Of a DNA stretch of 17,893 nt, positions 1 to 17,893 are shown in pieces (the stretch's first letter is position 1; every line of letters begins with the position of its first letter). A program made the translations under genes and the position numbers. The DNA lies in assembly GCA_015521505.1 (NCBI GenBank), contig WAOB01000038.1, forward strand, positions 1 to 17,893, given 5' to 3'. Origin of the DNA: Nanobdellati archaeon (GTDB lineage: Archaea; EX4484-52; JAADEF01). The notes beneath the pieces are model-generated. The model searched no databases, was not told the DNA's origin, and saw nothing but the letters and a program-made list of their open reading frames with translations.

Positions 1-151
1 TCTGCTATTCTCTTTTTATCTACTGCTGCAGTCAATAAATACTCCTTTCCACAATATCTACATCTAAGCACTGACACCATTTTTGTTCACCTTCCTTTCT
101 TCATACTTTTTAGCATATTCATTAATCCAATCCTCATAGCTCTCTAGATAA
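1..151. repeat. Left copy of 151-bp terminal direct repeat (circular overlap)
   Basis: Bases 1-151 are identical to 17743-17893. This is the usual signature of an assembler running past the end of a circular molecule. The repeat lies inside a minus-strand operon whose genes continue across the join, which supports a circle and not a linear genome with terminal repeats. Confidence 0.95.
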
Positions 152-300
152 TACTTTAGCATATTGCTCATCTTTACTCGCAAATAGTCTCTTTTAGCAA
201 CTTGTTTCATCTCTATAGAGATATTACATCCTGTAAAATGAATCTCCCAATCATCATAATCCTCATATTCTTTTCCACATAAACAGATGTAGTTTTTCAT
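64..300 (-). CDS. Small C2HC zinc-finger protein (78 aa), early operon
   Basis: The function is not known; a DNA- or protein-binding role is inferred. Close to the N-terminus it carries C6-x-C8-x12-H21-x3-C25, a likely zinc site beginning CLCGKEY. The rest is a charged helical region rich in Lys, Glu and Tyr. The ATG at 300 is chosen over one at 318 because a GAGGTGGT ribosome site lies 5-6 bases upstream of it. The gene follows the winged-helix gene that ends at 311, and its 3' end overlaps the start (ATG at 80) of the next zinc-finger gene by 17 bases. The CxxCGKEY-like element recurs in that next gene, so the two may be related. Its 3' part is also present in the terminal repeat at 17743-17893. 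Confidence 0.75.
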   Translation of the reverse strand: MKNYICLCGKEYEDYDDWEIHFTGCNISIEMKQVAKRDYLRVKMSNMLKYYLESYEDWINEYAKKYEERKVNKNGVSA

Positions 301-310
301 AGCAACCACC

Positions 311-1282
311 TCAAACATAAAAAGTCCTAATCGCTCTCATTATAACATCTATCTCTTGTTCTATGTCTTTGCTTTTCTCTAATTGAGAAACAAACTGCTC
401 AACATCTTGCTGTTTTATGTCAAGAAGATAAACATCTCTTAGTCTCTTAGTTACTTTTGCAGAAGCTTCTATGTATTCTTGTGTCATTGCTCCATATTTC
501 TTAAATATTCTTTTTCTAAACATCGCAAGCTCTATTAAAAGCTTCTTTATATTTTCTTCTCTATTATTTAGTTTCTCTATGTTTGAGTTTGATACAGATA
601 AAACTCTATCTAATTTGTTTATTCTTTCTTTAATATCCTTTGGAAGTAGAGAATATAATTCATTAGAGAATTTCTTTATTAGCTGTGAGTAAGGAGGGTT
701 AAAGACATAGAACTTAATCTTCTTTGCATTCTTTTTGTTTTTAGAGGTTGTAAATACTAACCTCTTTAATGAGAATGTAAGAACATCGTCTTCTGTTTCG
801 GAGATTATTCCTTTGTTTTCAAGTTCCGTTAATATATGTCTTATATCTCCATTGTTATATCCCGTTACTTTATGTATTAGTCTCTGATAGAAAGCATCAT
901 ATCTAGAAAATAAAACCATCGCAGTAAGCTCTATCTTCGTTTTTGTTTTTGTTAGATTAATAAAATAAGATAGAGGTTGTATAACCATAACCAACTCTTT
1001 AAGAGAAATATTTCTATCTTCTAATATTGAGGTGATGAGGTTATAACCAACCAACCTCTTTTTTTCTTCTATATTATATATATTTTTATGGGTTGGTTGT
1101 GGTTGTATAACCTCAACCTCAATATTCTCTCGTTCTCTATTATCTTTTACCCCATCTCCCTTCCTGGGATGTGAGGTGGGGTTGCCATTTGGCAGCCCTA
1201 CACTTACACCCGGGTTAATGGTTTTAGAATCATCATTTGTGACAGCATCGCTACCTTTAATAACTTTATTTTGCTCACTCAT
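311..1282 (-). CDS. Winged-helix DNA-binding protein (323 aa), first gene of early operon; candidate replication initiator or regulator
   Basis: Residues 1 to about 70 are polar and Pro/Gly/Asn-rich, so probably disordered. The middle, roughly residues 110-200, looks like a winged helix: a helical stretch, a recognition-helix-like segment (NNGDIRHILTELENKGII), then a beta wing. The C-terminal third is charged and helical, probably coiled coil. The ATG at 1282 is preferred over an upstream one at 1300, because the 1300 start lies inside a tandem repeat and GGTGAT sits 3 bases before 1282. Four 10-bp repeats (1288-1329) cover its leader, as expected for an autoregulated initiator or repressor. 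It heads about 13 small genes on the same strand. Initiator versus pure regulator cannot be decided here, and no Rep nuclease or ATPase motif is visible. Confidence 0.75.
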   Translation of the reverse strand: MSEQNKVIKGSDAVTNDDSKTINPGVSVGLPNGNPTSHPRKGDGVKDNRERENIEVEVIQPQPTHKNIYNIEEKKRLVGYNLITSILEDRNISLKELVMVIQPLSYFINLTKTKTKIELTAMVLFSRYDAFYQRLIHKVTGYNNGDIRHILTELENKGIISETEDDVLTFSLKRLVFTTSKNKKNAKKIKFYVFNPPYSQLIKKFSNELYSLLPKDIKERINKLDRVLSVSNSNIEKLNNREENIKKLLIELAMFRKRIFKKYGAMTQEYIEASAKVTKRLRDVYLLDIKQQDVEQFVSQLEKSKDIEQEIDVIMRAIRTFYV

Positions 1283-1287
1283 ATTAT

Positions 1288-1329
1288 CACCGTATATCAC
1301 CGTATATCACCGTATATAACACCGTATAT
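1288..1329. repeat. Four-copy 10-bp iteron array (CACCGTATAT)
   Basis: CACCGTATAT occurs at 1288-1297, 1298-1307, 1308-1317 and 1320-1329. Three copies are head to tail at 10 bp, about one helical turn, and the fourth is offset by 2 bp. A partial copy may follow at 1332. The array fills the space between a TATA-like element at 1350-1357 and the start codon at 1282. On the minus strand the last copy supplies the GGTGAT ribosome site. This is consistent with an operator or replication iterons bound by the adjacent winged-helix protein (inferred). Confidence 0.85.
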
Positions 1330-1349
1330 AACCGCATCCAGGGTGTGAA

Positions 1350-1382
1350 TATAAATAAGCCCCGTGTGGCAGCACGGGGCTT
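1350..1382. promoter_or_regulatory. Divergent promoter with shared TATA element and GC-rich inverted repeat
   Basis: TATAAATA at 1350-1357 can serve as a TATA box in both directions. On the plus strand it predicts transcription from about 1380, followed by GAGGTGA and the ATG at 1411. On the minus strand it predicts a start near 1325, inside the iterons. A perfect 10-bp inverted repeat, AAGCCCCGTG (1357-1366) and CACGGGGCTT (1373-1382) with a 6-base spacer, fills the space between the TATA box and the predicted plus-strand start. It could be an operator, or a terminator hairpin for transcripts arriving from upstream. Confidence 0.6.
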
Positions 1383-1410
1383 TACATTTAATGGTGAGGT
1401 GAATACACGA

Positions 1411-1500
1411 ATGGGATTAATGACATTGATTGCTGAAGTGATCGGAGCAGCTATTTTGGCGGTAGTGTTTTTCGTCTATATACTACCGCAGTTGCTGTAG
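1411..1500 (+). CDS. 29-residue single-span membrane peptide
   Basis: This gene has a strong GAGGTGA ribosome site (1396-1402) 8 bases before the ATG, a promoter-like TATA element upstream, and GC-rich hairpins on both sides, so it looks like its own transcription unit. The product is almost entirely hydrophobic with one predicted transmembrane helix, and ends VYILPQLL. That ending resembles the end of helix 1 in the VP1/VP3-like protein at 7640-7855, which reads VYIALLPVL. Codon use is richer in GCG, CCG and CTG than in most neighbours, as in the capsid gene at 10437, suggesting high expression. It may be a minor virion peptide or a membrane-active egress peptide; neither is shown. Confidence 0.65.
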   Translation: MGLMTLIAEVIGAAILAVVFFVYILPQLL

Positions 1501-1507
1501 CCGATAA

Positions 1508-1530
1508 GAGCGGTGCTCAAGGCACCGCTC
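1508..1530. terminator. Bidirectional GC-rich hairpin between convergent genes
   Basis: A perfect 9-bp stem, GAGCGGTGC (1508-1516) and GCACCGCTC (1522-1530), has a 5-base loop. It sits 8 bases after the stop of the 29-residue peptide gene. Its right edge touches the stop codon of the convergent AbrB-type gene (1529-1531), so it could end both transcripts. Confidence 0.65.
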
Positions 1531-1770: not shown

Positions 1771-1774
1771 TTCG

Positions 1775-1791
1775 GTCCCACCTTTTGGTGG
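1775..1791 (+). promoter_or_regulatory. Hairpin hiding the recombinase ribosome site; tRNA-3'-end-like candidate attachment site
   Basis: CCACC (1778-1782), TTTT and GGTGG (1787-1791) make a perfect hairpin whose 3' arm is the ribosome site for the ATG at 1797, so translation may be self-limited. The bases leading into it, CGGTCCCACC at 1773-1782, resemble the 3' end of some archaeal tRNA genes (acceptor strand, discriminator A, CC), and archaeal integrases commonly use tRNA 3' ends. The upstream T-arm match is poor, so the attachment-site idea is weak. Confidence 0.35.
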
Positions 1792-1796
1792 TTAAT

Positions 1797-2681
1797 ATGG
1801 AATATGTAAAAGGGAGATATTACGATAGATACATAACACGAATAATAGAGATAATACTCAAAGATGAGGAAATATTAAGCATCAACAAGCAGAGAATACA
1901 AGAGTTCATAATAACTCTATCTTTACAAAACAAGAAAAAATCAACAATCTTAAAGTATCTCTCAGTTATGCATAAGTTTATAAAACATGCTAAAAGAGAT
2001 ATAGATGAGTTGTCAGATTATGAGTTAAAGATGATACTTTTCACACTGCAACAAGAGATGACAAGAGCAGTTTTTAGAAACTTAAAGCAAGCAGTGAAGA
2101 AATATTACTCGTTAAAAGAAAGAAATCTGTGGTGGCTAAAAATAGAAGAAGAAACAGATGTTAAAGGAAAATACATAACAGAAGAGGACTTAAAAAGAAT
2201 ATTTTTAAGGATTGCTCAGAGAGATAGTGAGAAAAAGAAAATATTCTATTATCTATTGTGGAAAACAGGAGCAAGAGTTGGAGAATTGTTGCTTTTAAGA
2301 AAGAGAGATATTTCTATAAAGAAAGATGTTGTCTCTTTAAAACTTGATTTGAGAGCAAAGAACAAACCTTCACGGATCATAAGAATAAAAGATAATGTTC
2401 TTGCTAAAAATCTATTAAGCATAATACTTTCTCTAAGCGATGATGAGAGAGTTTTTAACTACTCTTATTACACAATAGCAGCAGATTTCAGAAAACTGCA
2501 GAAACAAGTTTTTAACAAAGTGAAGTATCGCTTATATGATTTTCGTCATACTAAAGCAACTGATTTGTTTAACAATGAGTTTTCTTATGCGAAAATATGT
2601 AACGTGATGGGTTGGGATATTACTTCTGATGTTGCGAAGAGATATTATCATAGAGAAGTTGATAGTAGTTTCATTCTCTAA
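1797..2681 (+). CDS. int: Tyrosine recombinase / integrase (294 aa)
   Basis: The enzyme would cut and rejoin DNA at specific sites through a tyrosine-DNA link, probably to integrate the circle or resolve it. Residues 1 to about 110 form a helical core-binding (SAM-like) domain, the rest the catalytic domain. Visible catalytic features are TGAR (R160), a basic beta-hairpin around RAKNKPSR, Y-D-F-R-H (R250; the usual first His is Tyr), a GW pair in the next box, and the nucleophile in RYYH (Y283). The ATG at 1797 has GGTGG 5 bases upstream; a TTG at 1785 would extend the reading frame but lies before that ribosome site. The length is normal for the family and the frame is not split by an attachment site as in SSV-type fuselloviruses. 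Confidence 0.92.
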   Translation: MEYVKGRYYDRYITRIIEIILKDEEILSINKQRIQEFIITLSLQNKKKSTILKYLSVMHKFIKHAKRDIDELSDYELKMILFTLQQEMTRAVFRNLKQAVKKYYSLKERNLWWLKIEEETDVKGKYITEEDLKRIFLRIAQRDSEKKKIFYYLLWKTGARVGELLLLRKRDISIKKDVVSLKLDLRAKNKPSRIIRIKDNVLAKNLLSIILSLSDDERVFNYSYYTIAADFRKLQKQVFNKVKYRLYDFRHTKATDLFNNEFSYAKICNVMGWDITSDVAKRYYHREVDSSFIL

Positions 2682-3372: not shown

Positions 3373-3762
3373 TCAAAAACTCACTCCTCTTAATAACGCT
3401 ATAAAGGCAAACAGATAGGGTATAAACCATACTAAAAATAATGGAACTGCAAATTCCAAAGGCAATCCATAACCAAATATTGTTAAAGGAGCAAGCAGTG
3501 TTGCAGCGAGGAAAACAAGGAAGTTCCAAATATATACTAAAGGATTAAATGTGGAAATAACAATGTTACTTGTTACTGTTGATCCTTGCGATGAATTTAA
3601 GTCTCTCTCAACACTCTCAAGCAAGTTATCTGAAATTAGCACAGTATCACTACTTTTATCAATTATTAAAAAGTGTTGCAATATTGTGTTCTGCTCATAT
3701 CCAAAAACTATTGTGAAAAAATTAAACAATAACATCACAAGCAGTATTCTTGCTCCTATCAT
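3373..3762 (-). CDS. Secreted/membrane protein with signal peptide (129 aa)
   Basis: The N-terminal 20 or so residues form a signal peptide (hydrophobic, after Arg5). A polar segment of about 50 residues follows, which would be outside the cell and has a possible N-glycosylation site (NSS). The last 60 residues carry two to three membrane helices with prolines (LAPLTIFGYGLP, VWFIPYLF). It begins 4 bases after the stop of the 1076-aa adhesin and is followed after 9 bases by the three-span protein. A spike or anchor-complex partner of the adhesin is plausible. I do not recognise the family. Confidence 0.75.
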   Translation of the reverse strand: MIGARILLVMLLFNFFTIVFGYEQNTILQHFLIIDKSSDTVLISDNLLESVERDLNSSQGSTVTSNIVISTFNPLVYIWNFLVFLAATLLAPLTIFGYGLPLEFAVPLFLVWFIPYLFAFIALLRGVSF

Positions 3763-3766
3763 GCCA

Positions 3767-6700
3767 TCACCTCAAAAACGCGATTATTAGGGCTATGCCT
3801 AAAACTATTGCTATAGAGCCTGCAACAAACGGCATCAGACCAGCAGCCATCAATATTCCTGTTGTTATCACAGCAACAACCATGCCAACAGCAACATTTC
3901 CAGAAACTGCAACGGCTCCTAAAACAACTAATGTTATGATTGTAAATGACATAAGAGCCTTAAAAGCATCTCCGTATTGTGAGGTATCTAATAGAATATC
4001 ATTAAGCGTTGTTCCATTACTTTGATAATACCATACAAAGTATGTTCTATTAATATAGTATTCGTTTTCTCCTACTCTTTTAAAGGATGCTTCTATTTTT
4101 ATACTATCTCCTATTGTTATGTTGTGTTCTGTTATATTCAAAGTATATATAATCTCTCCACCGCCTGGAGAATTATCGAGTAAATACGAATAAAGTATGT
4201 TATTGCCATTTATAACAGACATCTTCATATATTCTATGTCTGCATTAACAGAAGAAACTCTAAAGATAAATGTTGTTGTTTCATCTGTTATACTATTTCC
4301 TCGAGGAAGTAATGCATAAGACACACCATTAAACAAATTATCAAAATTTATGTCTAAAACATTTGATAGTTTTATTCTATATGATGTTGCGTAAGGTATT
4401 ATCTGCTTATAGAACGAAACATAATTAGGATGCTCAACTTTTATGTAATATTCTTTTTCTGGTTTGAGGAACAAATATGCTGTTGCTGAAGCATCTGTTT
4501 TTGCCTGAGCAACAACCCTGTATGCTCCATTTATGTATGCTAAAGCACTAACTTTTGCATTATATACTGGTTCGTCTCTTGAATTAACAATATTGAAGGC
4601 AATTGTTCTTCCAACATCTATCCTCAACAAATAAGCATCCAAACTCAAACTAGTGTATGCAGGCACATTAATATAATAACTTCTTGAGACATATTCATCA
4701 GAACTTGCAGTAAACCTAATTTCTCCTGTCAAGTTATAATCAATAACTCCGAATACAAACTTATTTCCTATCCACTCATCAGTATAGATTTCTTTCATAT
4801 AATAATGACAATAACTACCAGTGTTTGCAGATGTCTGAATTCTTAAAAACAACTTGTTGTCTTTAATATAATTATTATTGTATCTATAAGAAGAAAGATC
4901 AACACTTGATGTTAAACTACTGATTAGTTCCCATGTTGAACTACCAAAGTTTCTTATGTATATTCCTGTGCTCAAACAACTACTACCGCCTCGTATACTA
5001 TAACTTAATCTTAATATGTCGCTTTTGTTATAGATGTAGTAGTATAGCACTTTGTTGTCTGTTACAGCACCACTACTATCTCTCGTTTCTCCAAACAAAA
5101 TTGATGTATCAAACTTATTGTCTATTGTATTACTTATATCGTAATTTATGACTCCATCATCACTAAGATAACCGAAAGCAACATATTTTATGTTTTCAAT
5201 TTTACCGTTTTTATATCTTATATCTACACTTGCGTTAACAACATTATCTAATGTTTCTTCATCATAAATATTAATTACTATGTCTACTTGTATTGTGTTA
5301 AAAGTGTAGTTGATACGATAACTGTTGTTCAACTCAAGACCAACTTCTTTATATTCATAACCCCATGAAGTAGCATTCAACAAATAATAACCTTCTGTTA
5401 TCTCTCTCATTTTTACAAATATTGTGTAATTGTTAGTATTGTAAATATAAGTATTATTGAGAGTCAAAACCCAATCCTTTATATAATTTCCTTTATCGTC
5501 TTTTAGATAGAACTCGTGTATAAGATATATGTTAAACACCTCTTGTTTAAAGCCCATGCTATCATAAAATGTAATCTCTTTGTAATCTGTGTCATAACCT
5601 GATTTGCTTACCCACATCTTTGCTAATGTGTTATTTCCGATTTCTCTCCAATCTATAATCTTGTAGTTGAGATTATTATATGTTGTGTTCTGACCATTAA
5701 CCTCAATAGTTAAATAAAAACCGTTAACATTAGCAGTTACATTTACTCCGTGAATGACATTTACTATTTTCTCACTATAAGAAGTGTCTATATCATCATC
5801 TGCAACTATTGTTATGTTGTAGTGATATCCTTTCACATCAACTGATAAATCAACTTGTGTATTATTTACATAAGCAGTATTTGAATAAATCTCTGTTCCA
5901 TTTAGATAAGCATAAACTTTAATTGTTGAGTTGTCATAATCCATTACAGAGAAACTAATATTTAATTGTGTAATGCCATAATAAGTATTTTGTGAAGGTT
6001 CTATTAATGTTATGATCGGCACAGCATTACTTTGAGCAACCTGCTCCTGCCCCACACTTGTTGTTGGCTCTACACTTGAATATTCTGCAATTGCTATCCA
6101 ATCAACCCATAAAGTTTCAGCCGTTTTTGTAGAAAACTCAAAATATGCATCTGTTACCGAAGGCATATTAATAGTTTCTGTATATCTTAATGTATCGTTG
6201 ACATAATAATCAACACTACCACCATTGTTTACTGCTTTTGCATAAAAGAACTTACTTAAATCTAAATTTGCATTTACTTGTATGTCTGTCGTTCCATCCC
6301 ACGTCCTAAAAACATGATAACCATTTCCACTATTCCAACCAAACCCAAAACCCCCTCCACTAGCACTTCTCAACCAAATTGTTCCACCATAACCTGATGT
6401 CCCTGCATTTAATCCCTCTATTGCTATTCTTCCTATCCATCTTGATTGTAAATTATATATCTTATTTGCACCTTCCATAGCATTCCACACTACACCATTT
6501 CCGTCAACTGATAATACACCTCCACTTTCAACGACATTACCTGAATTTACAACCCATTTATTCGTATCAATCACTCCATCGTTAAAATCATCAAAAAAGA
6601 TAAAGACATTATCTCCATTACTTTGACTTATCGCACTTGGATTTCCATACCACATCTTTATCGTATAACTTGACGAAGCAGGAATAGAAGGAACTTTAAC

Positions 6701-6997
6701 CCATATTCTTGTATTTGCTGTATTACACGTTCCATCCTCAATCCAATATGCTAATTCTGTAATGCCGTCTGCTTCTGTAAACCTCACATCCGAACAATCA
6801 TTATTCATTTTACCTGCTGAAATTAGAGAAGCCGTATCAATTGTCACGAGAACTTGATAATTTGTTAAAGTATTGCTATTCTGCGTATTGTCAATAGTAA
6901 TGTCTCTATAATACTGCCAGCCTGTAAGAGCATAACCGCTACTTAAAAATATGCTAAATGCAAACAACATTAATAAAAAAGTTATGCTTTTTCTCAT
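3767..6997 (-). CDS. Membrane-anchored adhesin / virion spike (1076 aa) with DUF2341 and ConA-like domain
   Basis: Residues 1-24 are a signal peptide. About 28-125 match the DUF2341 pattern (WQYYRDITIDN, then DVRFTEADG, LAYWIEDG, IWVKVP and MWYGNP). Residues 136 to about 312 look like a ConA/laminin-G-type jelly roll that starts FFDDFND, often found after DUF2341 and linked to sugar binding. Several Ig-like or carboxypeptidase-regulatory-like beta domains follow, with many N-x-S/T sites. The last 65 residues contain three membrane helices that would anchor the protein. The spindle-shaped Pyrococcus virus PAV1 is reported to encode large laminin-G-like proteins, so host attachment is the best inference. 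GGTGATT precedes the ATG. It is the largest gene of the genome and lies in the structural operon. Confidence 0.88.
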   Translation of the reverse strand: MRKSITFLLMLFAFSIFLSSGYALTGWQYYRDITIDNTQNSNTLTNYQVLVTIDTASLISAGKMNNDCSDVRFTEADGITELAYWIEDGTCNTANTRIWVKVPSIPASSSYTIKMWYGNPSAISQSNGDNVFIFFDDFNDGVIDTNKWVVNSGNVVESGGVLSVDGNGVVWNAMEGANKIYNLQSRWIGRIAIEGLNAGTSGYGGTIWLRSASGGGFGFGWNSGNGYHVFRTWDGTTDIQVNANLDLSKFFYAKAVNNGGSVDYYVNDTLRYTETINMPSVTDAYFEFSTKTAETLWVDWIAIAEYSSVEPTTSVGQEQVAQSNAVPIITLIEPSQNTYYGITQLNISFSVMDYDNSTIKVYAYLNGTEIYSNTAYVNNTQVDLSVDVKGYHYNITIVADDDIDTSYSEKIVNVIHGVNVTANVNGFYLTIEVNGQNTTYNNLNYKIIDWREIGNNTLAKMWVSKSGYDTDYKEITFYDSMGFKQEVFNIYLIHEFYLKDDKGNYIKDWVLTLNNTYIYNTNNYTIFVKMREITEGYYLLNATSWGYEYKEVGLELNNSYRINYTFNTIQVDIVINIYDEETLDNVVNASVDIRYKNGKIENIKYVAFGYLSDDGVINYDISNTIDNKFDTSILFGETRDSSGAVTDNKVLYYYIYNKSDILRLSYSIRGGSSCLSTGIYIRNFGSSTWELISSLTSSVDLSSYRYNNNYIKDNKLFLRIQTSANTGSYCHYYMKEIYTDEWIGNKFVFGVIDYNLTGEIRFTASSDEYVSRSYYINVPAYTSLSLDAYLLRIDVGRTIAFNIVNSRDEPVYNAKVSALAYINGAYRVVAQAKTDASATAYLFLKPEKEYYIKVEHPNYVSFYKQIIPYATSYRIKLSNVLDINFDNLFNGVSYALLPRGNSITDETTTFIFRVSSVNADIEYMKMSVINGNNILYSYLLDNSPGGGEIIYTLNITEHNITIGDSIKIEASFKRVGENEYYINRTYFVWYYQSNGTTLNDILLDTSQYGDAFKALMSFTIITLVVLGAVAVSGNVAVGMVVAVITTGILMAAGLMPFVAGSIAIVLGIALIIAFLR

Positions 6998-7639: not shown

Positions 7640-7855
7640 TCACCTCTCAAATTCCGAATAACTCCATATGCTCCTTATGATCGCTAACAACAAGAATAGA
7701 GGGAATAGCGAGAGTATTAATGAAGTCATACCGCTTGTTGTATTTAATGCTTGCTGTATTAAATCATTTAAAACAGGCAATAAAGCAATATAAACTACTA
7801 ACAAAAAGAATCCTACCAATATTCCATTAAATGTCAATTGCCCCTTAACCTTCAT
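7640..7855 (-). CDS. VP1/VP3-like capsid protein of spindle-shaped viruses (71 aa)
   Basis: There are two membrane helices (about residues 11-31 and 46-64) joined by a polar turn. The pattern LLPV-x2-D-x-I-x2-A, then T and later FPLFLLL, matches the conserved scheme of fusellovirus VP1/VP3 major capsid proteins as I know them (Pro at the end of helix 1, PLF in helix 2). It also aligns with the protein at 10437 (PV-x2-D-x-I-x-QA, then PLFL). Such proteins line the lipid-associated spindle coat. The ATG at 7855 overlaps the stop of the 835-aa gene as ATGA and has GAGGTGG 5 bases before it; a GTG at 7864 lies inside that ribosome site and is rejected. The N-terminus is not cleaved in any way I can see. 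Confidence 0.75.
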   Translation of the reverse strand: MKVKGQLTFNGILVGFFLLVVYIALLPVLNDLIQQALNTTSGMTSLILSLFPLFLLLAIIRSIWSYSEFER

Positions 7856-10359
7856 AATTTCCACCTCTTTCTATAATTCAAAGGAAGATTATAAGTCATT
7901 CCTGTTTTTAATAAATGCTTCCTAAACACTTTCAATATCTCTGGTGTTGGTTCTGGTTGTTTGACCTTTTTACCTGTTCTTGCCTCATATCTTATTATGT
8001 CTGCCCACGACCAATGAGGCAAGAACTCTTTATCTTTCTTTTTCTTTTTTGATTTACTTTTCTTCTCTAGTGATAAAGAAGCTCTTCTTTTAGTCAAAGA
8101 CAAAGACACAAGTTTTGGAGATGTCAGTTTCATATATCTACTATACAAAGAAATGTCTAAAGACAAAGGAGTTGTTTCTTTAGATATTTGCTTTTGCTTC
8201 AATTTCTGCAATTCTTTCAATTTTATTTTTAACATTGTTTTAAGCCTTAATTTTTGTGAGGTCTCAATATTTCTTAAACCGATTCTTCCTATACTAATTA
8301 TTTGTGATGAATTTGATTTCGATGTTTCTTGTTTGTTCTTGCTTTTGTTAATTTGTTTGTTTTCGATTAAGTTTATATTTCTCAATGATAATTTGTTATC
8401 TAGTTTTAATTTAATTGGCTCGGTATTTGAGTTAAGTGATATATTAGTTCTACTTGCTATACTATTCTGACTTTCTTTTACCTTTACAGGAGAAGTTCCT
8501 TTATAATTAACGGATGGTTTAATATCTACAGATGGCTTTTTAACAGCACTTTCAGTTACTGCTGCAACTATGCTGGAAACATCTTCTTTTGTTTTTGTTT
8601 TTGTAGTGGTTTTTCCTTTACCAACTATTGTTTTTTTGCCTAAATCTCGCAAGTATATGTTTTTAATTTCAAATCTACCTTTATTTGTTAATACTCTCCC
8701 TATAGAGACATCATACTTCTCCCCTGATTTAGTAAATAATAACGTCTCTTCAGGATATATTTTTATAGAAATCTTTTTACTTCTGTAATACTCGCTATAA
8801 TGAGCACCTAAACTCTCATAAGATTTATACTTTCCTGTTTCTTTTAGAGTATAATCACTAATCTTGACATATCTTTTTGTCTTTCCTAGTTTCTCTGCTA
8901 GAATGTATTTCATACCTTTAATCCTGCTAATCCTTTTACCATCTCTTAATGCTATGTCATAAGTTATAACGTTGTTATTTTTGCTAGCAAATCCAGTAAA
9001 TGCCTTATCATCATAAACAACGAACGTCTTTTTGTATGGTTCTATATTACCATAAGTTATCTTTTGGTATGTCCTAGAGAAACCCGTTACTTGATATTGA
9101 TTACTATATTTATTTGTTATCGTATATACTTTACCGCCTTCTTCTATATTGCTAGGAACAATTTTAGTTGTGGAAAAACTAGCCTTAAATCCAGAATATG
9201 CAATAGGAGACATTAAAGAATAAGAACCTGCTTTAGAGAAAGCATCAGCGTATTTCTTCGTGTAAATGTCTTTACCTATGTCTATTGCAGCCATAGATGT
9301 AAAACCAGCCCCTAGTATTCTATTATATTTTACCGCAAGATTAGGCGCTTTATTATACACCCATGCACTACCTTTACCTAGAGCATATGAACCTGTTAAA
9401 ACATATGCAGATTGCATCATAGGAGAGGATGCTAAAAATTTAACTTGCCCCAGATAACCTTCTTTTTGTCTTTGTTCTACTTCTTTTAAAATATCATATT
9501 TTAAATCCACTACTTTATTAACTGCCTTTTCTTTATCCATAAACCCGAGTTTCGCAGACCCAAGATAGTAAAGGGATTTTAGATTAAAAGGATCCTTACC
9601 TGACATAACACCAGAAGACCATATTAAACCAAAACTCTTTAAATCTCCTTGAGAAAGCATGTTCTTAAGTTGCTCCTTTGCTTTTTTCTCTTTTATTGCT
9701 TCATAATTCCATAACATTTTAGAGTATAAATACTTATTATAATCTTCGTATAACTCACTGTTGAAATCCTTATATTTTTTTAGTTTTTCTTTATTCTGTT
9801 CATATTCCTTGACAAATGCTCTTGCTCTCTCTAAATCTCTAAAAAATTGTTCTCTTTCTTCTCTACTCAATATAGATAGTTGCCTAATCCTATTTCTCGT
9901 TTCTGGATTATCATATTGTGCTAAAAATGATTTAGCATTTCTATAGCTTTGCTCGTATCTTTGAATCTGTGCTAAATTTTGCTGATATAAGTTGTATGCC
10001 ATGATGTTTGCCGTTCTTTTTAGTTCCATGAGGTTAGAAAGTTCTTTATTTTGTGTTTGTTGTATATTTTTAGAAGGTAATGCTTTTTCATTAGTTGTTT
10101 TTTCAAGTGTGATTTGTTTTTGTTGTTGTGCAAGTTTGCTTCCTGGTTTAGCAGTTCTCTTTAAGTGCTCTTTAACTTTATAATAGTAATAATCGCTTCT
10201 TGCCTTACCTATCCTTTTAGCCTCTGTATCTGATTTACCTTCTAAATATTTTGCCTTAAGATATTCTAATCTCTCGTCTCTCTTTTTAGGGTCATTTATT
10301 TTCCTTGCTTTCTCTAGTTCCTTCCAATACTCAGAAGGCGGAGATTTAGATTTACTCAA
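7852..10359 (-). CDS. Large virion-type protein with central hydrophobic region (835 aa), first gene of structural operon
   Basis: The family is not recognised. Residues 1-270 are highly charged, helical and coiled-coil-like. About 300-395 is Gly/Ala/Ser-rich and moderately hydrophobic, suggesting membrane insertion. About 400-590 is beta-rich, 600-770 Ser/Lys/Asn-rich and low complexity, with a Lys-rich KSKSKKKKKDK tract. A distinct conserved-looking tail (HWSWADIIRYEARTGKKVK) ends the protein. It starts with TTG at 10359, five bases after GGTGAT. It heads the structural operon and overlaps the capsid gene by ATGA. An internal virion protein that contacts genome and membrane, or a genome-ejection protein, is a reasonable inference from architecture and place, not proven. 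Confidence 0.75.
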   Translation of the reverse strand: MSKSKSPPSEYWKELEKARKINDPKKRDERLEYLKAKYLEGKSDTEAKRIGKARSDYYYYKVKEHLKRTAKPGSKLAQQQKQITLEKTTNEKALPSKNIQQTQNKELSNLMELKRTANIMAYNLYQQNLAQIQRYEQSYRNAKSFLAQYDNPETRNRIRQLSILSREEREQFFRDLERARAFVKEYEQNKEKLKKYKDFNSELYEDYNKYLYSKMLWNYEAIKEKKAKEQLKNMLSQGDLKSFGLIWSSGVMSGKDPFNLKSLYYLGSAKLGFMDKEKAVNKVVDLKYDILKEVEQRQKEGYLGQVKFLASSPMMQSAYVLTGSYALGKGSAWVYNKAPNLAVKYNRILGAGFTSMAAIDIGKDIYTKKYADAFSKAGSYSLMSPIAYSGFKASFSTTKIVPSNIEEGGKVYTITNKYSNQYQVTGFSRTYQKITYGNIEPYKKTFVVYDDKAFTGFASKNNNVITYDIALRDGKRISRIKGMKYILAEKLGKTKRYVKISDYTLKETGKYKSYESLGAHYSEYYRSKKISIKIYPEETLLFTKSGEKYDVSIGRVLTNKGRFEIKNIYLRDLGKKTIVGKGKTTTKTKTKEDVSSIVAAVTESAVKKPSVDIKPSVNYKGTSPVKVKESQNSIASRTNISLNSNTEPIKLKLDNKLSLRNINLIENKQINKSKNKQETSKSNSSQIISIGRIGLRNIETSQKLRLKTMLKIKLKELQKLKQKQISKETTPLSLDISLYSRYMKLTSPKLVSLSLTKRRASLSLEKKSKSKKKKKDKEFLPHWSWADIIRYEARTGKKVKQPEPTPEILKVFRKHLLKTGMTYNLPLNYRKRWKL

Positions 10360-12801: not shown

Positions 12802-13251
12802 ATGTCTTTAAATAGACAGCAAATGCTTAAAGAAGAAGAACTTGGAGCAGTTAAAATAACAGATGCTTTTAATATGCTTCTATTTAGGCAGATGGATAGA
12901 ATAAATGTTATTGCTAGCAGTATGGATGGTAATTATAATAAAGATATAGTGCTTGCTTACGATTCTGCAGTAAAGCAGTTAAAAGCAATGCTTTATAAAA
13001 GTATATTTAATAACAAGATACTTTTTAAGATATTCAACGACATAGAAGCAAAGAAAAAGAAACTAATAAAAGAGACTAAACTTTCTATGATGGAGTTTAG
13101 GAAAGCCTATTATGATATGGTTTATGAGCAGTTTGCTATACTTATGCTTATCTATGAGATGTATTATCTTGTTGATGAAGTAGATGCCGAGGGAAAACTA
13201 ATTGATGAGGTTGATGTGAATGCTGGAAACAATACAAAGCAGAATAACTAA
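12802..13251 (+). CDS. Helical soluble protein (149 aa), function unknown
   Basis: It is almost all helix with heptad-like hydrophobic spacing, so a coiled-coil bundle is likely. The C-terminal 20 residues are acidic then Asn-rich (NAGNNTKQNN) and overlap the ATPase start by 32 bases. No motif is recognised. Its place directly before the ATPase suggests a partner or adaptor of the ATPase, by inference only. Confidence 0.72.
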   Translation: MSLNRQQMLKEEELGAVKITDAFNMLLFRQMDRINVIASSMDGNYNKDIVLAYDSAVKQLKAMLYKSIFNNKILFKIFNDIEAKKKKLIKETKLSMMEFRKAYYDMVYEQFAILMLIYEMYYLVDEVDAEGKLIDEVDVNAGNNTKQNN

Positions 13252-14251
13252 TTACCCGAATAAAAGAAATCTAATGAACCTTGAGGAAATGATTTCATTA
13301 GATTTAGATTTAAGACCTCATTATGAAGAGTTAATTAATGCTGTATCTTATAATCCATATGATCCTCACAATATATGGCAAGCACATTTTGACATGATAA
13401 GGCAAAGAGTTTATGAGAACAATCAGAATTATCTAGCAATATTTACAGGGCCCACAGGTTCCGGTAAGAGTTATTCTTCTTTAGCATTTGCCTTAACTCT
13501 AAACCCAGATTTTAACATAGAGGAAAGGATTGTTTTTAATGTCAAGGATTTCTTTAGGTTAATAAATAGCGGAGAACTAAAAAAAGGAGATGTCATAATA
13601 TGGGAAGAACTAGGAACCTCTACTCCTTCTGAGGAATGGTATAGCAAGCAGAACAAGGCAGTTAGAATGGTTTTAGAGACTTTTAGAACAGACAACCTTA
13701 TCGTTATCTTTAATGTGCCTTATCTTAAGTTCATTGATAGCAAGATAAGAATGCTAATGCATGCTCATTATAGAGCAATGGGATTTAGCAAAAAGAACGG
13801 ATTTGGATATGTGAAGCCTTATGCTATAGATTATAATGAATATCTGGACAAGATATTTTATCCAACCATGAAGTTAAAGGTTATGGGTAAAATAGTTAAG
13901 ATAAAATATCTAAAGATTCCAAGAATTCCTCGTAAAATTGCTCAAAGATATGAAAAGGTTAGAGAAGAGTTCTTAGAAGAGTTAAAAATGAAGCATGAGA
14001 CAGAGATAAGGGCAGAGGAGGTTAAAGAAGATAACAAAGACACACAATATAAGAAGCTTATTGTTAGAGAGATTGAAAGGTTGAGAGCAGAAGGATATAA
14101 ATGGAAAGAAATTGCTGAATATATGCTTGAGGAATATAACATTAATAAGAAAGAATCTGCATGGTTGCAGTTCTATAAACAAAACAAAGAAAAATTACTT
14201 AAGCCTAGGTTTGATGAATTATTATCAAAAATAAAGAATAATTCTAAATAA
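13220..14251 (+). CDS. P-loop ATPase (343 aa), candidate packaging/assembly motor
   Basis: The Walker A motif is GPTGSGKS at residues 77-84 and Walker B is GDVIIWEE at 123-130, with E129/E130 catalytic. An Asn at 165 (IVIFNVPYL) fits sensor 1. The fold is of the additional-strand (ASCE) type found in archaeal virus and plasmid ATPases (HerA/FtsK, Zot-like or the fusellovirus B251/B204 group); I cannot say which. Residues 238-275 are a charged helix, and 284-325 contain a helix-turn-helix-like segment (RAEGYKWKEIAEYML) that may bind DNA. GAGGT 8 bases before the ATG at 13220 supports that start. It is the last gene of the plus-strand operon. Packaging or virion assembly is the likely role; a DnaA-like replication role is the alternative. 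Confidence 0.85.
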   Translation: MLETIQSRITNYPNKRNLMNLEEMISLDLDLRPHYEELINAVSYNPYDPHNIWQAHFDMIRQRVYENNQNYLAIFTGPTGSGKSYSSLAFALTLNPDFNIEERIVFNVKDFFRLINSGELKKGDVIIWEELGTSTPSEEWYSKQNKAVRMVLETFRTDNLIVIFNVPYLKFIDSKIRMLMHAHYRAMGFSKKNGFGYVKPYAIDYNEYLDKIFYPTMKLKVMGKIVKIKYLKIPRIPRKIAQRYEKVREEFLEELKMKHETEIRAEEVKEDNKDTQYKKLIVREIERLRAEGYKWKEIAEYMLEEYNINKKESAWLQFYKQNKEKLLKPRFDELLSKIKNNSK

Positions 14252-14353: not shown

Positions 14354-14376
14354 TAGAAAAAAATAAGGTGGTTGAT

Positions 14377-14967
14377 TTGCCAAAACCTTGGAGATGGCAC
14401 AATAAAGTTAAAAGGAAGTTGGATAAGAGCATACCTTCGGAAGAAGATATATTAGAGAAAATAAATTCTATAAGTAATGCTAGAAATAGATATTTTATAA
14501 TGATGTTATATTATACAGGAGGTAGGATTTCAGAGGTTCTTAATGTGCAAAGGATCTCTAAAGAAGTTAGATATAGCAGAATGCTTTCTAAGTATGTTCC
14601 GGTAATAGAAATACATATGCCTAATGAGAAAACCAGGGATAAAATACCTACTAAGATTATTCCTCTTAATCTTGAAATAGAAAATATAGAATATATTCTT
14701 CCCATGTATGAGTATGTTAAGATGGTTATAAGAAGCCCGCAGAAATGGGGATTTAGCACTAAGCAGAGAGCATGGCAGATAATTAAGAAAGAAACAGAAG
14801 GGTGGTTTGACTTTCCTGTCAATCCTCACATATTTAGACATTTAAGAACATCTCATCTAACTATGAGGGGCTATCATCCTGAGGTAATAAGACGATTGTT
14901 GGGATGGACGAGTTTAAGGATGTATGAGAGACATTACTCTCATTTGAATGTGTCAGATTTGATATAG
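14377..14967 (+). CDS. Compact tyrosine recombinase, catalytic domain only (196 aa)
   Basis: The catalytic set is complete: TGGR (R50), a Lys in NEKTR (K85), H-x-x-R (H151, R154), LGW (W177) and the nucleophile in HYSHL (Y187). The usual N-terminal core-binding domain is reduced to about 20 basic residues, so the protein is only about two thirds of normal family length. It may work with a partner, recognise a simple site, or resolve dimers in a Xer-like way. TTG at 14377 has AAGGTGG 5 bases upstream and is preferred over a GTG at 14368 that lies inside that ribosome site. It has its own promoter region and no downstream gene on the same strand. Its last 107 bases overlap a convergent gene. 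Confidence 0.87.
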   Translation: MPKPWRWHNKVKRKLDKSIPSEEDILEKINSISNARNRYFIMMLYYTGGRISEVLNVQRISKEVRYSRMLSKYVPVIEIHMPNEKTRDKIPTKIIPLNLEIENIEYILPMYEYVKMVIRSPQKWGFSTKQRAWQIIKKETEGWFDFPVNPHIFRHLRTSHLTMRGYHPEVIRRLLGWTSLRMYERHYSHLNVSDLI

Positions 14968-15181
14968 GGAAATCGACATAATAACCACGTATTTTTACAT
15001 AATCATCAATTTTATTATAATAATATTGTTCTATATCTCTATACATTAAAGCAACCATAAAAACACCAACAATAACAATTATATCTATTGTAATAGATAG
15101 AATAAAAAAGAACTTCTCATATCTTCTATTTGTACATTCATTAAGTTTTTTTAACCAATATCTCATCTCATAGATTTGCAT
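14861..15181 (-). CDS. Single-span membrane protein (106 aa), convergent overlap with recombinase
   Basis: A basic N-terminus is followed by one membrane helix at about residues 24-46 and then a polar, Ser/Asn-rich tail. The tail from about residue 72 is encoded antisense to the end of the recombinase gene, 107 bases of overlap; that part may have arisen by loss of an earlier stop. GGTGGAT precedes the ATG at 15181, and the start overlaps the upstream winged-helix gene by 14 bases, which supports translation. It is the last gene of the early operon. Family and function are unknown. Confidence 0.58.
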   Translation of the reverse strand: MQIYEMRYWLKKLNECTNRRYEKFFFILSITIDIIVIVGVFMVALMYRDIEQYYYNKIDDYVKIRGYYVDFPISNLTHSNESNVSHTSLNSSIPTIVLLPQDDSPS

Positions 15182-15470
15182 TTATGATCCACCACCAAAA
15201 CCTATCTGTTTTATCTTGCTCATCTAAGTATGACAATGCTTTTTCTTTAGATGTAAGTTCATAGATATATGCACCCTCTTCTGTTATACCTATAACATGT
15301 ATGATTCCTTTTTTTGCTAAATGCTGTATTGCTCTTTTTATCTGCATATATAGGGCTTCATTCTCATTTTTAGAGTAAGCATTAAAAAGAGAAAGAAAAT
15401 CCTTTGTTGTGCCTTTCTCGTGAGATATTAAAAAGTATATAATCTTCTTTCTAATTTCTGTGAAGGTCAT
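15168..15470 (-). CDS. Winged-helix transcription regulator (100 aa)
   Basis: The layout is typical of a winged helix: helix 1 (EIRKKIIYFLISHEKG), helix 2 (TTKDFLSLFNAY), recognition helix (IKRAIQHLAKKGII), then a two-strand wing (HVIGITEEGAYIYELT). The C-terminal tail is Trp-rich (FWWWI). It would bind DNA, probably as a dimer, and control viral or host promoters. The ATG shares its A with the stop of the upstream gene (TAATG), and GAGGTGA precedes it. It is distinct from the larger winged-helix protein at 311-1282. Confidence 0.75.
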   Translation of the reverse strand: MTFTEIRKKIIYFLISHEKGTTKDFLSLFNAYSKNENEALYMQIKRAIQHLAKKGIIHVIGITEEGAYIYELTSKEKALSYLDEQDKTDRFWWWIINANL

Positions 15471-15673
15471 TATCGGTCACCTCTATCTAACTTTATCACA
15501 CCATCCTTTATAAGTTGTATGTATATTGTTCCCCATACTCTTAATGCAAAAACCATTATATTATTTTCAAGCATAGACACCATTTTCTCATATTCCTCTT
15601 CACTTAGTATCCCTGCTTTCCTACTTAACTCGATAAACTCTCTTAATTCTTCCTCACTTATAATTGAGCCCAT
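15470..15673 (-). CDS. Small acidic helical protein (67 aa), function unknown
   Basis: The N-terminal 40 residues are acidic, with two helices (SEEELREFIELSRKAG and SEEEYEKMVSMLEN), and the C-terminus is basic. The repeated SEEE-type helix starts suggest a helical hairpin. ATG at 15673 is chosen because GGTGGTG lies just upstream; two GTG codons further up lie inside that site. The gene lies 52 bases after 15725, the largest gap in this operon. Confidence 0.68.
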   Translation of the reverse strand: MGSIISEEELREFIELSRKAGILSEEEYEKMVSMLENNIMVFALRVWGTIYIQLIKDGVIKLDRGDR

Positions 15674-15724
15674 ATACACCACCTTATATTAAATATACTG
15701 TGTCTATGTCCATCATTGATCACT

Positions 15725-15985
15725 TCATAAAAACTCTTCCAATAAATTATGAAATACAATTCTCTCTTCCTCGTTTACTTCAAATATCACATCAAAATCC
15801 TCAATATATGCATCTTGTAAACCTATATTTTTGGCATATTCCCTCAATCTTCTATCTAAAGAAGCGTAGAATTCATCAATTACTTTCCAATCAATTTCCT
15901 TACTAAAATCCTCTATTGTGTTTTTTATTATATTTTTTACTTCTTTTTTTAACATTTGTACAGCATCCACAACATTATTTTCCAT
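15725..15985 (-). CDS. Small acidic protein (86 aa), paralogue of the 16590-16889 protein
   Basis: The protein is helical at the N-terminus and alpha/beta at the C-terminus. The segment LREYAKNIGLQDAYIEDFDV aligns with LKKFAKERGFYDIYIDDTYH of the protein at 16590-16889, and both end with a hydrophobic strand, a Val-x-Glu and a final helix (LLEEFL; VLKEVC). The two are best explained by duplication inside the operon. Function is unknown. GGAGGTGGT is the ribosome site before the ATG at 15985. Confidence 0.7.
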   Translation of the reverse strand: MENNVVDAVQMLKKEVKNIIKNTIEDFSKEIDWKVIDEFYASLDRRLREYAKNIGLQDAYIEDFDVIFEVNEEERIVFHNLLEEFL

Positions 15986-16378
15986 TCATACCACCTCCCT
16001 CTTCCAATTAATTTTCTTATACTCTTTCTCAATATTACTTATCACCTTTGGCAATATCTCAACCTTTCTCTTTGCTCTTTCTAAACTATCTTTTAACATC
16101 TCTAAAAAATACTCAACCGCTTCCTCTTTTTCTGTATAGAATGGTATTTTACCATACAAAATTTTATCTAATGTTATTGTTGTTTCGTATTCAACAAATT
16201 TCTTATCTTCAATCTCTCCATCCTTAAAATATAATTTTATCCCTCTTACTTTAAATCGAAAAGATGTTTTGTTCTCTTTAATTAACTCATATTCTGCTAA
16301 TTCAAACATATCAAAAAACCAACCACCACTATATATTTTCTTCGCTTTTAGTATGTCTTCTTTTTTTGTTACTTCCAT
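15986..16378 (-). CDS. Soluble alpha/beta protein (130 aa), early operon, function unknown
   Basis: Residues 30-80 look beta-rich (TSFRFKVRGIKLYFKDGEIEDKKFVEYETTITL split over several strands) and the C-terminal 50 residues form a long charged helix ending KINWKREVV. No family is recognised. ATG at 16378 overlaps the upstream stop (TGATG); a GTG one codon earlier is possible. The next gene starts one base after its stop. Confidence 0.72.
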   Translation of the reverse strand: MEVTKKEDILKAKKIYSGGWFFDMFELAEYELIKENKTSFRFKVRGIKLYFKDGEIEDKKFVEYETTITLDKILYGKIPFYTEKEEAVEYFLEMLKDSLERAKRKVEILPKVISNIEKEYKKINWKREVV

Positions 16379-16578
16379 CACTCATCACCCTCTAATGTCT
16401 TAATAACATCATCAATCAATTCTTTCGCTTCTTTCAACCATTCAATCACTTTTTCCTTTTGGCATTCGTCATTACAATTCTGTAACTTATTTTCCCCTTC
16501 CTCTATAGTCCAATTCACATCAATAAGTAATTCCTCTATTTTTTGTGTTTTCTCCATAACAGATTCTTTCCAAGTCAT
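16378..16578 (-). CDS. Small acidic coiled-coil protein (66 aa), early operon
   Basis: It is almost entirely helical with Glu/Lys and heptad spacing, and has two Cys in CNDEC. Function unknown. The translation start uses GAGGTGATGTGGAATGA, nearly the same cassette as at 16889 and 17092. It starts 11 bases after the 16590 gene's stop. Confidence 0.7.
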   Translation of the reverse strand: MTWKESVMEKTQKIEELLIDVNWTIEEGENKLQNCNDECQKEKVIEWLKEAKELIDDVIKTLEGDE

Positions 16579-16589
16579 TCCACATCACC

Positions 16590-16889
16590 TCAACATACTT
16601 CTTTCAAAACATGTTCGAATTTTATCTTATCAAATGCGAATTCATCAACTATTATTACGATATGATAAGTGTCATCTATATAGATATCGTAAAATCCTCT
16701 CTCTTTTGCAAATTTCTTTAACTCTTTTTCAAACTCATCATTAAATTCATATAATACTTCCTCGAACAAATCGTCTTCTGCATAGCACAAATCAGAAACA
16801 CCTTTTCTGTTCAATGTTTCTTCCCAAACTTTATCAGCAATACTCTCTACTTCTTCACGTAGCTTTTTTATATCATTTGCTGTTATCAT
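16590..16889 (-). CDS. Small acidic protein (99 aa), paralogue of the 15725-15985 protein
   Basis: The N-terminal 60 residues are acidic and helical, followed by the AK-x2-G-x2-D-x-YI-D segment shared with 15725-15985, a hydrophobic strand (YHIVIIVDEF) and a final helix. The start overlaps the upstream stop as ATGA and is preceded by GGTGATGTGGA. Function is unknown. The strong acidity would fit a DNA-mimic or inhibitor, but nothing shows this. Confidence 0.7.
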   Translation of the reverse strand: MITANDIKKLREEVESIADKVWEETLNRKGVSDLCYAEDDLFEEVLYEFNDEFEKELKKFAKERGFYDIYIDDTYHIVIIVDEFAFDKIKFEHVLKEVC

Positions 16890-17092
16890 TCCACATCACC
16901 TTTTGACTTCAACTTCCCGAGTTCATTTTTCATTTCTTCTACATTTTCAACTAATGCCTTGATATACTCTTTTATCGTATCAATATCGTCAAACAAATCT
17001 ACGAAATCTTGTTCTATATTTATGAACTCTTCTTCAAACGTTTTCAGTTTCTTCTTTACAAACTCAACAAACTCTTTATTAACCTCATTCAT
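16886..17092 (-). CDS. Small acidic coiled-coil protein (68 aa), early operon
   Basis: The protein is one long acidic helix or helical pair with heptads (FEEEFINIEQDFVDLFDDID) and a basic C-terminus. ATG at 17092 is chosen over one at 17116 because it gives an ATGA overlap with the upstream stop and follows AGGTGGTGTGGA. Family unknown. Confidence 0.7.
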   Translation of the reverse strand: MNEVNKEFVEFVKKKLKTFEEEFINIEQDFVDLFDDIDTIKEYIKALVENVEEMKNELGKLKSKGDVE

Positions 17093-17283
17093 TCCACACC
17101 ACCTGCCTCTTTCCATTTCTTTTTTATCTCATAAATCATATCACTAACTTTATCAGCAATATCCTCTAATGTTGTCCATGCCTCTGCTAATGCTTCATTC
17201 TTAAGATACTCATCAACTTCTTCCAAATCATAGAGTATCTCTTTCAAAAAATCTCTCAAATCAGCTGTTTGTAGTGCTTCCAT
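17089..17283 (-). CDS. Small acidic helical protein (64 aa), early operon
   Basis: Two or three acidic helices are visible (RDFLKEILYDLEEVDEYL, then AWTTLEDIADKVSDMIYEI), with a short basic tail. The family is not recognised. AGGAGGTGA lies shortly before the ATG at 17283. The start lies inside the upstream 52-aa gene by 23 bases. Confidence 0.7.
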   Translation of the reverse strand: MEALQTADLRDFLKEILYDLEEVDEYLKNEALAEAWTTLEDIADKVSDMIYEIKKKWKEAGGVE

Positions 17284-17419
17284 TTTGCCTCACCTCCTTA
17301 CTCTTACTCTTATATGAGTATGGCTCCATTTCCTCTCTCAAATCCTGCAATATATCGACTGCAAGCAATAGCAAATCCTCAACTTGTTTTATCCTCTCAT
17401 CCCATGATTTTCTGCTCAT
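17261..17419 (-). CDS. 52-aa helical peptide, early operon
   Basis: A gene below the usual length cut-off. The first 32 residues form an amphipathic helix (QVEDLLLLAVDILQDLREE); the tail is Ser/Lys-rich. The ATG overlaps the upstream stop as ATGA, with AAGGTGAT just before it, which is the main support for it being real. Its 3' end overlaps the next gene by 23 bases. Function is unknown. Confidence 0.6.
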   Translation of the reverse strand: MSRKSWDERIKQVEDLLLLAVDILQDLREEMEPYSYKSKSKEVRQNGSTTNS

Positions 17420-17562
17420 TTTATCACCTTCTGTTTAATTATTCTCAACTCGCAGTTCTCACATTCTATCACTCTGACAGCTTCATGCTCCCATTTCACT
17501 AAATCAAACCCGCAAAAGCACTTGCCTATAACTTCCAAACCTAAAAGCTCTCTCCACTTCAT
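17416..17562 (-). CDS. 48-aa zinc-ribbon peptide, early operon
   Basis: C15-x-C17 and C34-x2-C37 form a likely four-cysteine zinc ribbon, with short strands between. The ATG at 17562 follows GAGAGGTGATCTA, and the stop overlaps the next ATG as ATGA. It could bind nucleic acid or a host factor. It is too short for default gene finders, but the metal motif and tight overlaps support it. Confidence 0.68.
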   Translation of the reverse strand: MKWRELLGLEVIGKCFCGFDLVKWEHEAVRVIECENCELRIIKQKVIK

Positions 17563-17566
17563 TAGA

Positions 17567-17822
17567 TCACCTCTCTTCCAGAGCGTTTGCTATTCTTGAC
17601 AAATTCATAACAATCTTAAACAACAACTCTTCTTGATTATACGACACTATCTCAAAACCCGCTGTTTTACAGCCTTCATAAGTGCTGTGATTTTCTGCTA
17701 TTCTCTTTTTATCTACTGCTGCAGTCAATAAATACTCCTTTCTCTGCTATTCTCTTTTTATCTACTGCTGCAGTCAATAAATACTCCTTTCCACAATATC
17801 TACATCTAAGCACTGACACCAT
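17567..17822 (-). CDS. C2HC zinc-finger protein (68 aa after repair), frame broken by 49-bp duplication
   Basis: As written, the frame from ATG at 17822 stops inside the duplicated 49 bp. Removing one copy gives a 68-residue protein with C7-x2-C10 (CRYCGKEY), H29 and C35, so all four zinc ligands return and the stop falls at 17567. The CxxCGKEY start and the H/C pair resemble the protein at 64-300, which is directly upstream in the circle and overlaps it by 17 bases. Both the ribosome context and the downstream gene spacing (4 bases) are normal. I therefore read this as one intact gene spoiled by an assembly artefact at the contig ends. A true frameshift mutation is the alternative. Confidence 0.7.
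17694..17791. repeat. Two tandem 49-bp copies at the contig junction
   Basis: 17694-17742 and 17743-17791 are identical. The length is 16 codons plus one base, so it shifts the frame of the zinc-finger gene there. It lies exactly where the circular overlap begins, which points to a faulty join. Confidence 0.9.
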
Positions 17823-17893
17823 TTTTGTTCACCTTCCTTTCTTCATACTTTTTAGCATATTCATTAATCCAATCCTCATAGCTCTCTAGATAA
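17743..17893. repeat. Right copy of 151-bp terminal direct repeat
   Basis: Identical to 1-151; redundant sequence from the circular overlap. The start of the 68-aa zinc-finger gene and the end of the 64-300 gene are repeated here and must not be counted twice. Confidence 0.95.

Follow-up and report, generated by a model that had tools for sequence, protein, structure and literature searches.

A circular genome of about 17.7 kb that probably belongs to a spindle-shaped virus of a DPANN archaeon

A P-loop ATPase of the SSV1 B251 group is common in archaeal spindle-shaped viruses, and a shared core beyond VP1/VP3 and B251 is a trait of the family Fuselloviridae, in which SSV1 has D-335 as its integrase. 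The object of the present analysis is a stretch of 17,893 bp, hereafter called the window, which is contig WAOB01000038.1 (C38) of an 849-kb archaeal draft genome (141 contigs; 76.5% complete and 4.3% contaminated) and which an initial annotation had taken for the circular genome of a spindle-shaped virus, possibly of a new lineage, close in size to PAV1 (near 18 kb). It is considered very likely that the window is the complete circular double-stranded DNA genome, of about 17.7 kb, of a temperate and probably spindle-shaped virus of a DPANN archaeon, and this virus probably stands for a spindle-type lineage that is new at family level. The link to a DPANN host is its main news.

Hairpin capsid proteins and two transmembrane-helix lectin-domain proteins are described as core for the spindle viruses of Thermococcales (PMC12934983), and spindle viruses are mentioned for anaerobic methanotrophic (ANME-1) archaea (PMC9894754) and for Bathyarchaeia (PMC10848311). 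DPANN archaea make up a large part of archaeal diversity and few of their viruses have been described. Two rows of a table in a 2018 review (PMC5867849), 'Nanoarchaeota 0 Yes' and 'Nanohaloarchaeota 0 Yes', are taken here to mean that isolates are lacking and that sequences give evidence of viruses; for Ca. Altiarchaeum, viruses have been reported (PMC8324899). DPANN viruses as such are therefore not new. No paper on a spindle-type DPANN virus was found in a literature search that reached few subscription journals; a 2025 study reportedly deals with viruses of nanosized DPANN symbionts.

The genes on which the comparison with these viruses turns are the following, proteins being measured in amino acids (aa).

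7640..7864, minus strand: candidate VP1-type major capsid protein, 74 aa, two hydrophobic helices
10428..10631, plus strand: second VP1-type protein, 67 aa, paralogue of the preceding one by phmmer and alignment
13220..14251, plus strand: P-loop ATPase, 343 aa, related to SSV1 B251 and to the ATPase of LSV-48N (a Haloferax lemon-shaped virus, PP151251) by tblastn, hidden Markov model (HMM) and hhalign
3767..6997, minus strand: surface adhesin, 1,076 aa, with DUF2341 near the N-terminus (Pfam E 5e-30) and predicted C-terminal helices

The two short proteins are paralogous, with mutual phmmer E-values of 7e-5 and 1e-4. When the profile of their family (46 sequences) was compared with the PDB, the capsid protein VP1 of SSV19 came out on top at E 9e-6, the next match lying at E 0.14. 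Among the open reading frames (ORFs) of 11 loci, the same profile placed SSV1 VP1, SSV1 VP3 and His1 ORF21 as its top three, the last one weakly (E 1.5e-4); these were again the top three with the core columns alone, and none of 100 column-shuffled profiles reached any of the three scores. A relationship of the two-helix proteins to fusellovirus VP1 is supported by these profiles, and the two VP1/VP3-like capsid genes of the initial annotation gain support from the SSV19 match; the comparison with VP1/VP3 that it had proposed as a check gave similarity, the opposite of the outcome named there as refuting. No match to either protein was found by tblastn in 50,697 phage records, none of the 115 matches of the VP1 model in a library of viral models had an E of 0.001 or better, and none of 50 candidates from an alignment search of viral contigs was confirmed.

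The annotated P-loop ATPase was recovered in the domain scans with its P-loop motif intact, and 37 relatives were found at E up to 1e-3. LSV-48N is its sole match in the phage collection (tblastn E 4e-16, 27% identity). The family HMM matched SSV1 B251 at E 1e-7 and His1 ORF16 at E 2.4e-4, and in hhalign the family profile gave 99.9% with LSV-48N, 95.5% with SSV1 B251 (205 of 251 residues) and 92.0% with His1 ORF16. Against the PDB the profile gave short matches only, many of them at the P-loop; in viral contigs neither of 2 candidates was confirmed with the ATPase alone, and 1 of 242 was confirmed with the ATPase alignment. Six window proteins were searched by tblastn in the phage records, and a spindle- or lemon-shaped virus came up for the ATPase alone; a search for near DNA matches of the whole window in the same records found none. 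Both results support the claim of a new lineage.

For the adhesin, 15 phage records were matched by tblastn, all through the N-terminal part around DUF2341; 14 are records of rod-shaped viruses (some duplicates) and one is a tailed virus, as for a widely shared domain. Its profile reached at best E 0.44 in the PDB, and identity with SSV1 C-792 (hhalign 9.5%) is not claimed. The membrane-anchored jelly-roll adhesin of the initial annotation stands as a DUF2341 protein; its jelly-roll derives from DUF2341 alone, and its membrane anchor appears in a low-confidence model only. A glycan-binding role may fairly be inferred for it, because membrane-helix lectin-domain proteins are core in the spindle viruses of Thermococcales.

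The same two-helix capsid fold could also build particles that are bacilliform (Clavaviridae-like) or pleomorphic. This is held to be unlikely, since the sequence profiles point to VP1 and VP3 of fuselloviruses and to His1 ORF21, and since the family profile of the ATPase has matches in SSV1, His1 and LSV-48N.

A scan of a genome collection gave nine loci with a related ATPase. One of them, L003, and a further locus, L091, both from the draft of isolate S141, are fragments of the window's own virus and back its sequence, with 3,027 bp at 100% identity and 4,729 bp at 99.98%. The locus L004 (JALWJP010000121), a 13.1-kb fragment from the DPANN group archaeon M17, is 86% identical to the window in DNA over 7.8 kb (block 7640-15471) and matches 16 of the 34 window genes, whereas L006 (DAOVNB010000002, isolate CSMAG_1486), a circle of 17,899 bp with 141-bp ends, matches 14 of the 34, all 14 in the same order. 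In both, the VP1-type genes, the adhesin, a plus-strand cassette and the ATPase are arranged as in the window. The ATPase of L006 is 57% identical to that of the window; its early genes have no match to those of the window except two at 14861-15470. A second circular relative, L090, lies in the same CSMAG_1486 draft (contig 1-18859, 141-bp ends, circle of 18,718 bp); its adhesin is of the same family (E 4e-124), its VP1 matches are marginal (E 0.003 and 0.008) and it gave no ATPase match with the window family profile. The fragment L048 (G006; 1-10195) has an adhesin start 72% identical to that of the window and an ATPase that is more distantly related (profile E 9e-6), so that adhesin relatives are present in L004, L006, L048 and L090.

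Within the phylum, 34 genomes of one order were examined, and a VP1-type match was found in 4 of the 34, one being a relic with stops. This VP1-like relic (L023, G005:C71:1408-1548) has three in-frame stops and is possibly a decayed provirus. In a DNA search of the 34 genomes, among the best 8 candidates per genome, no exact match longer than 24 nt was found outside the window's draft. Short DNA patches of 89-98% identity between L090 and L006 suggest recombination between co-resident viruses. A stretch of 40 nt in the S141 draft (L092, G001:C170, 3380-3419) is 85% identical to L004; it may be an old spacer or a chance match.

A DNA search of the DPANN family returned short matches to the window on contig C6 of the window's own draft, and C6 ends in a clustered regularly interspaced short palindromic repeats (CRISPR) array of 13 exact repeats plus one cut by the contig end.

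L046:3273-4174, on C6: CRISPR array, 13 spacers
1365..1399, minus strand: protospacer of spacer 10, 0 mismatches
2571..2607, plus strand: protospacer of spacer 9, 0 mismatches
7906..7941, plus strand: protospacer of spacer 1, 0 mismatches
16103..16141, plus strand: protospacer of spacer 3, 3 mismatches of 39

Exact matches to the window are thus shown by three of the 13 spacers (36, 37 and 35 nt), and a fourth, of 39 nt, differs from it at 3 positions. For the remaining nine the mismatches number 11 to 19, which is the level of shuffled spacers; in 100 shuffles per spacer the lowest number reached was 10. All four protospacers are followed by NGG as printed (TGG, TGG, TGG, CGG), that is 5'-CCN on the other strand, the motif usual for type I CRISPR systems. 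The spacer matching that had been proposed for finding the host therefore led to a DPANN-family contig. C6 carries chromosomal genes, which by their sequence we take to encode eS26, RfcS, eS19, Pth2 and a ribonucleotide reductase. Its RfcS is 80% identical to that of G005, 77% to G002 (M17), 61% to S141, 60% to CSMAG_1486 and 50% to a Woesearchaeota draft, which places C6 in the DPANN family; RfcS alone does not separate S141 from the wider order. The rpoB on C51 (L020) does separate them, with 79% identity to M17, 60% to CSMAG_1486 and 51% to S141. In composition, the window agrees with four DPANN-family contigs at r 0.95-0.98, compared with 0.78 for an S141 contig and 0.79 for a CSMAG_1486 contig, which is compatible with a DPANN host, as weak evidence. 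A search of the bin for archaeal small-subunit ribosomal RNA gave no match. Taken together, the CRISPR records in the same draft indicate that the window virus infects a DPANN archaeon.

Several points weigh against this view of the window. All that carries it, namely circularity, gene content, relatedness of VP1-type protein and ATPase, circular relatives and CRISPR targeting, is read from sequence. The predicted fold of the 74-aa protein ranks the SSV19 VP1 chain first both in Foldseek and in a second structure aligner, but with a Foldseek E of 1.6, which is not significant, and with a warning from the second aligner that helical models often reach a Z of this size. In hhalign the VP1 family reached 33% with SSV1 VP3 and 14% with His1 ORF21; the window ATPase alone gave 98.5% with LSV-48N and only 31% with SSV1 B251 and 41% with His1 ORF16. 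The ATPase family profile also gave 85% with a second LSV-48N protein, and general P-loop likeness may therefore play a part in the ATPase matches. The model of the whole adhesin has a mean predicted local distance difference test (pLDDT) score of 40 and is usable for secondary structure only. No known replication enzyme was found among the window genes, and Cas1 was not found in any of four family drafts, which are 74-85% complete, none near complete. Lastly, the draft bin is mixed or perhaps holds two partners of one symbiosis, its second rpoB (C55, L016) sharing 75% identity with the rpoB of S141, the 2.4-Mb archaeon with which the fragments of the same virus were binned.

These last points raise the possibility that the true host is the archaeon S141, of about 2.4 Mb, or a relative of it, and that the DPANN array reflects mere exposure, such as to viral DNA coming from a partner cell. 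The 100% and 99.98% identical fragments in the S141 bin would fit this, as would the S141-like rpoB in the window's bin, which lies on a contig near the window in composition (r 0.93). However, the search of the S141 bin returned the two virus fragments only and no spacer among the best 40 of 113 candidates, whereas 4 of the 13 C6 spacers match the virus; the relatives L004 (M17) and L006 (CSMAG_1486) come from further drafts within the DPANN host's order, and composition, although a weak guide, is closest to the four DPANN-family contigs. A host other than a DPANN archaeon is consequently thought improbable. It is still less probable that the virus passes from a DPANN symbiont to a larger archaeal partner and back, leading a nested two-host life, an idea suggested by the same genome being binned with the 2.4-Mb archaeon and with a spacer-bearing DPANN genome in separate data sets.

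The element could also be a plasmid or a defective provirus that keeps capsid relics and makes no virions. It is known from its genes alone and has two recombinases, and the VP1-like relic of G005 exists; but the 34 called genes fill 95% of the circle, the block 7640-15471 is conserved in the DNA of L004 and its proteins are kept in L006, and this explanation is regarded as very unlikely next to that of a virus of a DPANN archaeon.

The features that bear on the form of the genome are these.

1..151: terminal direct repeat, left copy (circular junction), identical to 17743-17893
17743..17893: terminal direct repeat, right copy, identical to 1-151
17694..17742: extra 49-bp tandem copy of bases 1-49, abutting the junction
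311..1300, minus strand: 329-aa protein, first gene of the junction-crossing operon, with weak winged-helix matches below cut-offs
64..318, minus strand: 84-aa protein beside the junction, with a CxC...H...C pattern read by eye
14861..17728, minus strand: operon of 12 small genes

Since bases 1-151 equal 17743-17893 exactly, the circular unit is 17,742 bp, and the minus-strand operon crosses the join with genes from 1300 down to 64 and then from 17728 down to 14861; the circle near 17.7 kb claimed by the initial annotation is confirmed by both. The frame of the small zinc-finger-like ORF at the junction is shifted by the 49-bp tandem copy, which could reflect misassembly, copy-number variation or a real duplication, and the circle may therefore be 17,693 bp. 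That a linear or integrated element was wrongly assembled into a circle is highly improbable, the odd position of the 49-bp copy exactly at the join being outweighed by the operon that runs over it and by the terminal overlaps of 141 bp in L006 and L090. The search of the window for transfer RNAs found none, and no Rfam family was found in it at gathering score; two weak matches from a permissive Rfam scan were taken as chance. No DNA polymerase was found in Pfam scans (30 of 34 genes) or PHROG scans (20 of 34 genes).

Recombination and regulation are represented by the following features.

1785..2681, plus strand: tyrosine integrase, 298 aa (Pfam E 1e-13), containing one exact protospacer
14368..14967, plus strand: short tyrosine recombinase, 199 aa (Pfam E 2e-11), common to L004
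2743..2768, plus strand: candidate attachment core, 26 nt, 3' of the integrase gene, identical to a site on C45
1529..1678, minus strand: AbrB/MazE-type DNA-binding protein, 49 aa (Pfam PF04014 E 8e-7, above cut-off)

An integrase is present, as annotated; where one had been named there are two tyrosine recombinases, the shorter of which has no match in L006. The 26-nt stretch is a candidate attachment core on account of its identical copy on C45 (L047:163-188), a contig whose genes presumably encode lysyl-tRNA synthetase and RtcB. Window 2693-2730 is in addition 92% identical over 38 nt to a C45 site (L047:803-840) lying 0.6 kb from the 26-nt site; the core was searched in viral contigs and found in none. 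The AbrB-type regulator is likewise upheld by the PF04014 match. In the minus-strand operon, two genes at 14861-15470 match both L004 and L006 and that at 17416-17562 matches L004; the other nine of the 12 have no match in either.

The remaining conserved genes lie around the capsid candidates.

3373..3762, minus strand: membrane protein, 129 aa, 49% identical in L006
3094..3363, minus strand: small membrane protein, conserved in L006
7852..10359, minus strand: 835-aa protein adjoining the VP1-type gene, related to L004
10751..13251, plus strand: six-gene cassette, its order kept in L004 and L006
10751-11095, 11092-11466, 11454-12104, 12101-12577, 12546-12800 and 12802-13251, plus strand: genes of the cassette

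The 835-aa protein is 43% identical to L048 over residues 37-518. It has no detectable relationship to the 885-aa protein at the corresponding place in L006, and position alone is therefore not taken as homology. By tblastn, neither the 835-aa protein nor the 129-aa membrane protein had a match in phage records; a caveolin match of the latter (PDB, E 0.005) was taken as a chance hydrophobic match. Family scans of the 835-aa protein, the membrane proteins at 3094-3762 and the cassette at 10751-13251 gave no convincing match.

Virion shape, entry, release without lysis and integration are inferred, and the following course is proposed. The VP1-type proteins at 7640-7864 and 10428-10631 would build a lipid-associated shell, in which the membrane-anchored DUF2341 protein would sit and bind cell-surface sugars. 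The B251-type ATPase, at the end of the conserved plus-strand cassette, may act on viral DNA in replication or packaging. Integration and excision of the circle, at a chromosomal site resembling that on C45, could be the work of one or both tyrosine recombinases. The AbrB-type protein and the junction-crossing minus-strand operon would supply regulatory and host-take-over genes. If this holds, VP1-type spindle viruses extend to tiny, mostly symbiotic hosts, and here a complete genome is joined to an immune record in the host draft and to a circular relative from a second family within the host's order. VP1 and the adhesin are targets for virus fluorescence in situ hybridization and for structural work.

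Among known systems, LSV-48N, which is described as lemon-shaped by microscopy (PMC12714723), resembles the window in its related ATPase and, as judged by eye, in its block layout by gene size and strand and in its two annotated integrases. It differs in its genome of 24.9 kb and its haloarchaeal host, and no VP1-type protein was detected in it with the window family profile. A comparison of 36 queries with 27 of the 37 proteins annotated in it gave values above 50% for the ATPase queries alone, against two proteins. Nearly all genes are stated to be common across the LSV-48N group (PMC12714723), while only the ATPase of the window is clearly related to it. With Halspiviridae the likeness is weaker, ORF21 and ORF16 of His1 (AF191796) matching the VP1 and ATPase profiles weakly; the His1 genome, in contrast to the circular window, is linear, carries terminal repeats and encodes a type B DNA polymerase, whereas the scans of the window yielded no polymerase. 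The Thermococcales viruses PAV1 and TPV1, likened here by published description only, resemble it in their hairpin capsid and lectin-type proteins. Fuselloviridae (SSV1, X07234; SSV19) share circular double-stranded DNA and relatives of VP1, VP3 and B251 with the window. Their hosts are Sulfolobales, whereas the window is linked by CRISPR to a DPANN-family contig, and no sign of their wider core was found, the hhalign probabilities of the 17 other SSV1 proteins compared all staying below 25%; VP2, among the 20 SSV1 proteins compared, had no match, although VP2 need not be conserved. In the broad sense, spindle-shaped viruses are marked by a VP1-related two-helix protein and a B251-group ATPase, and both were found in the window.

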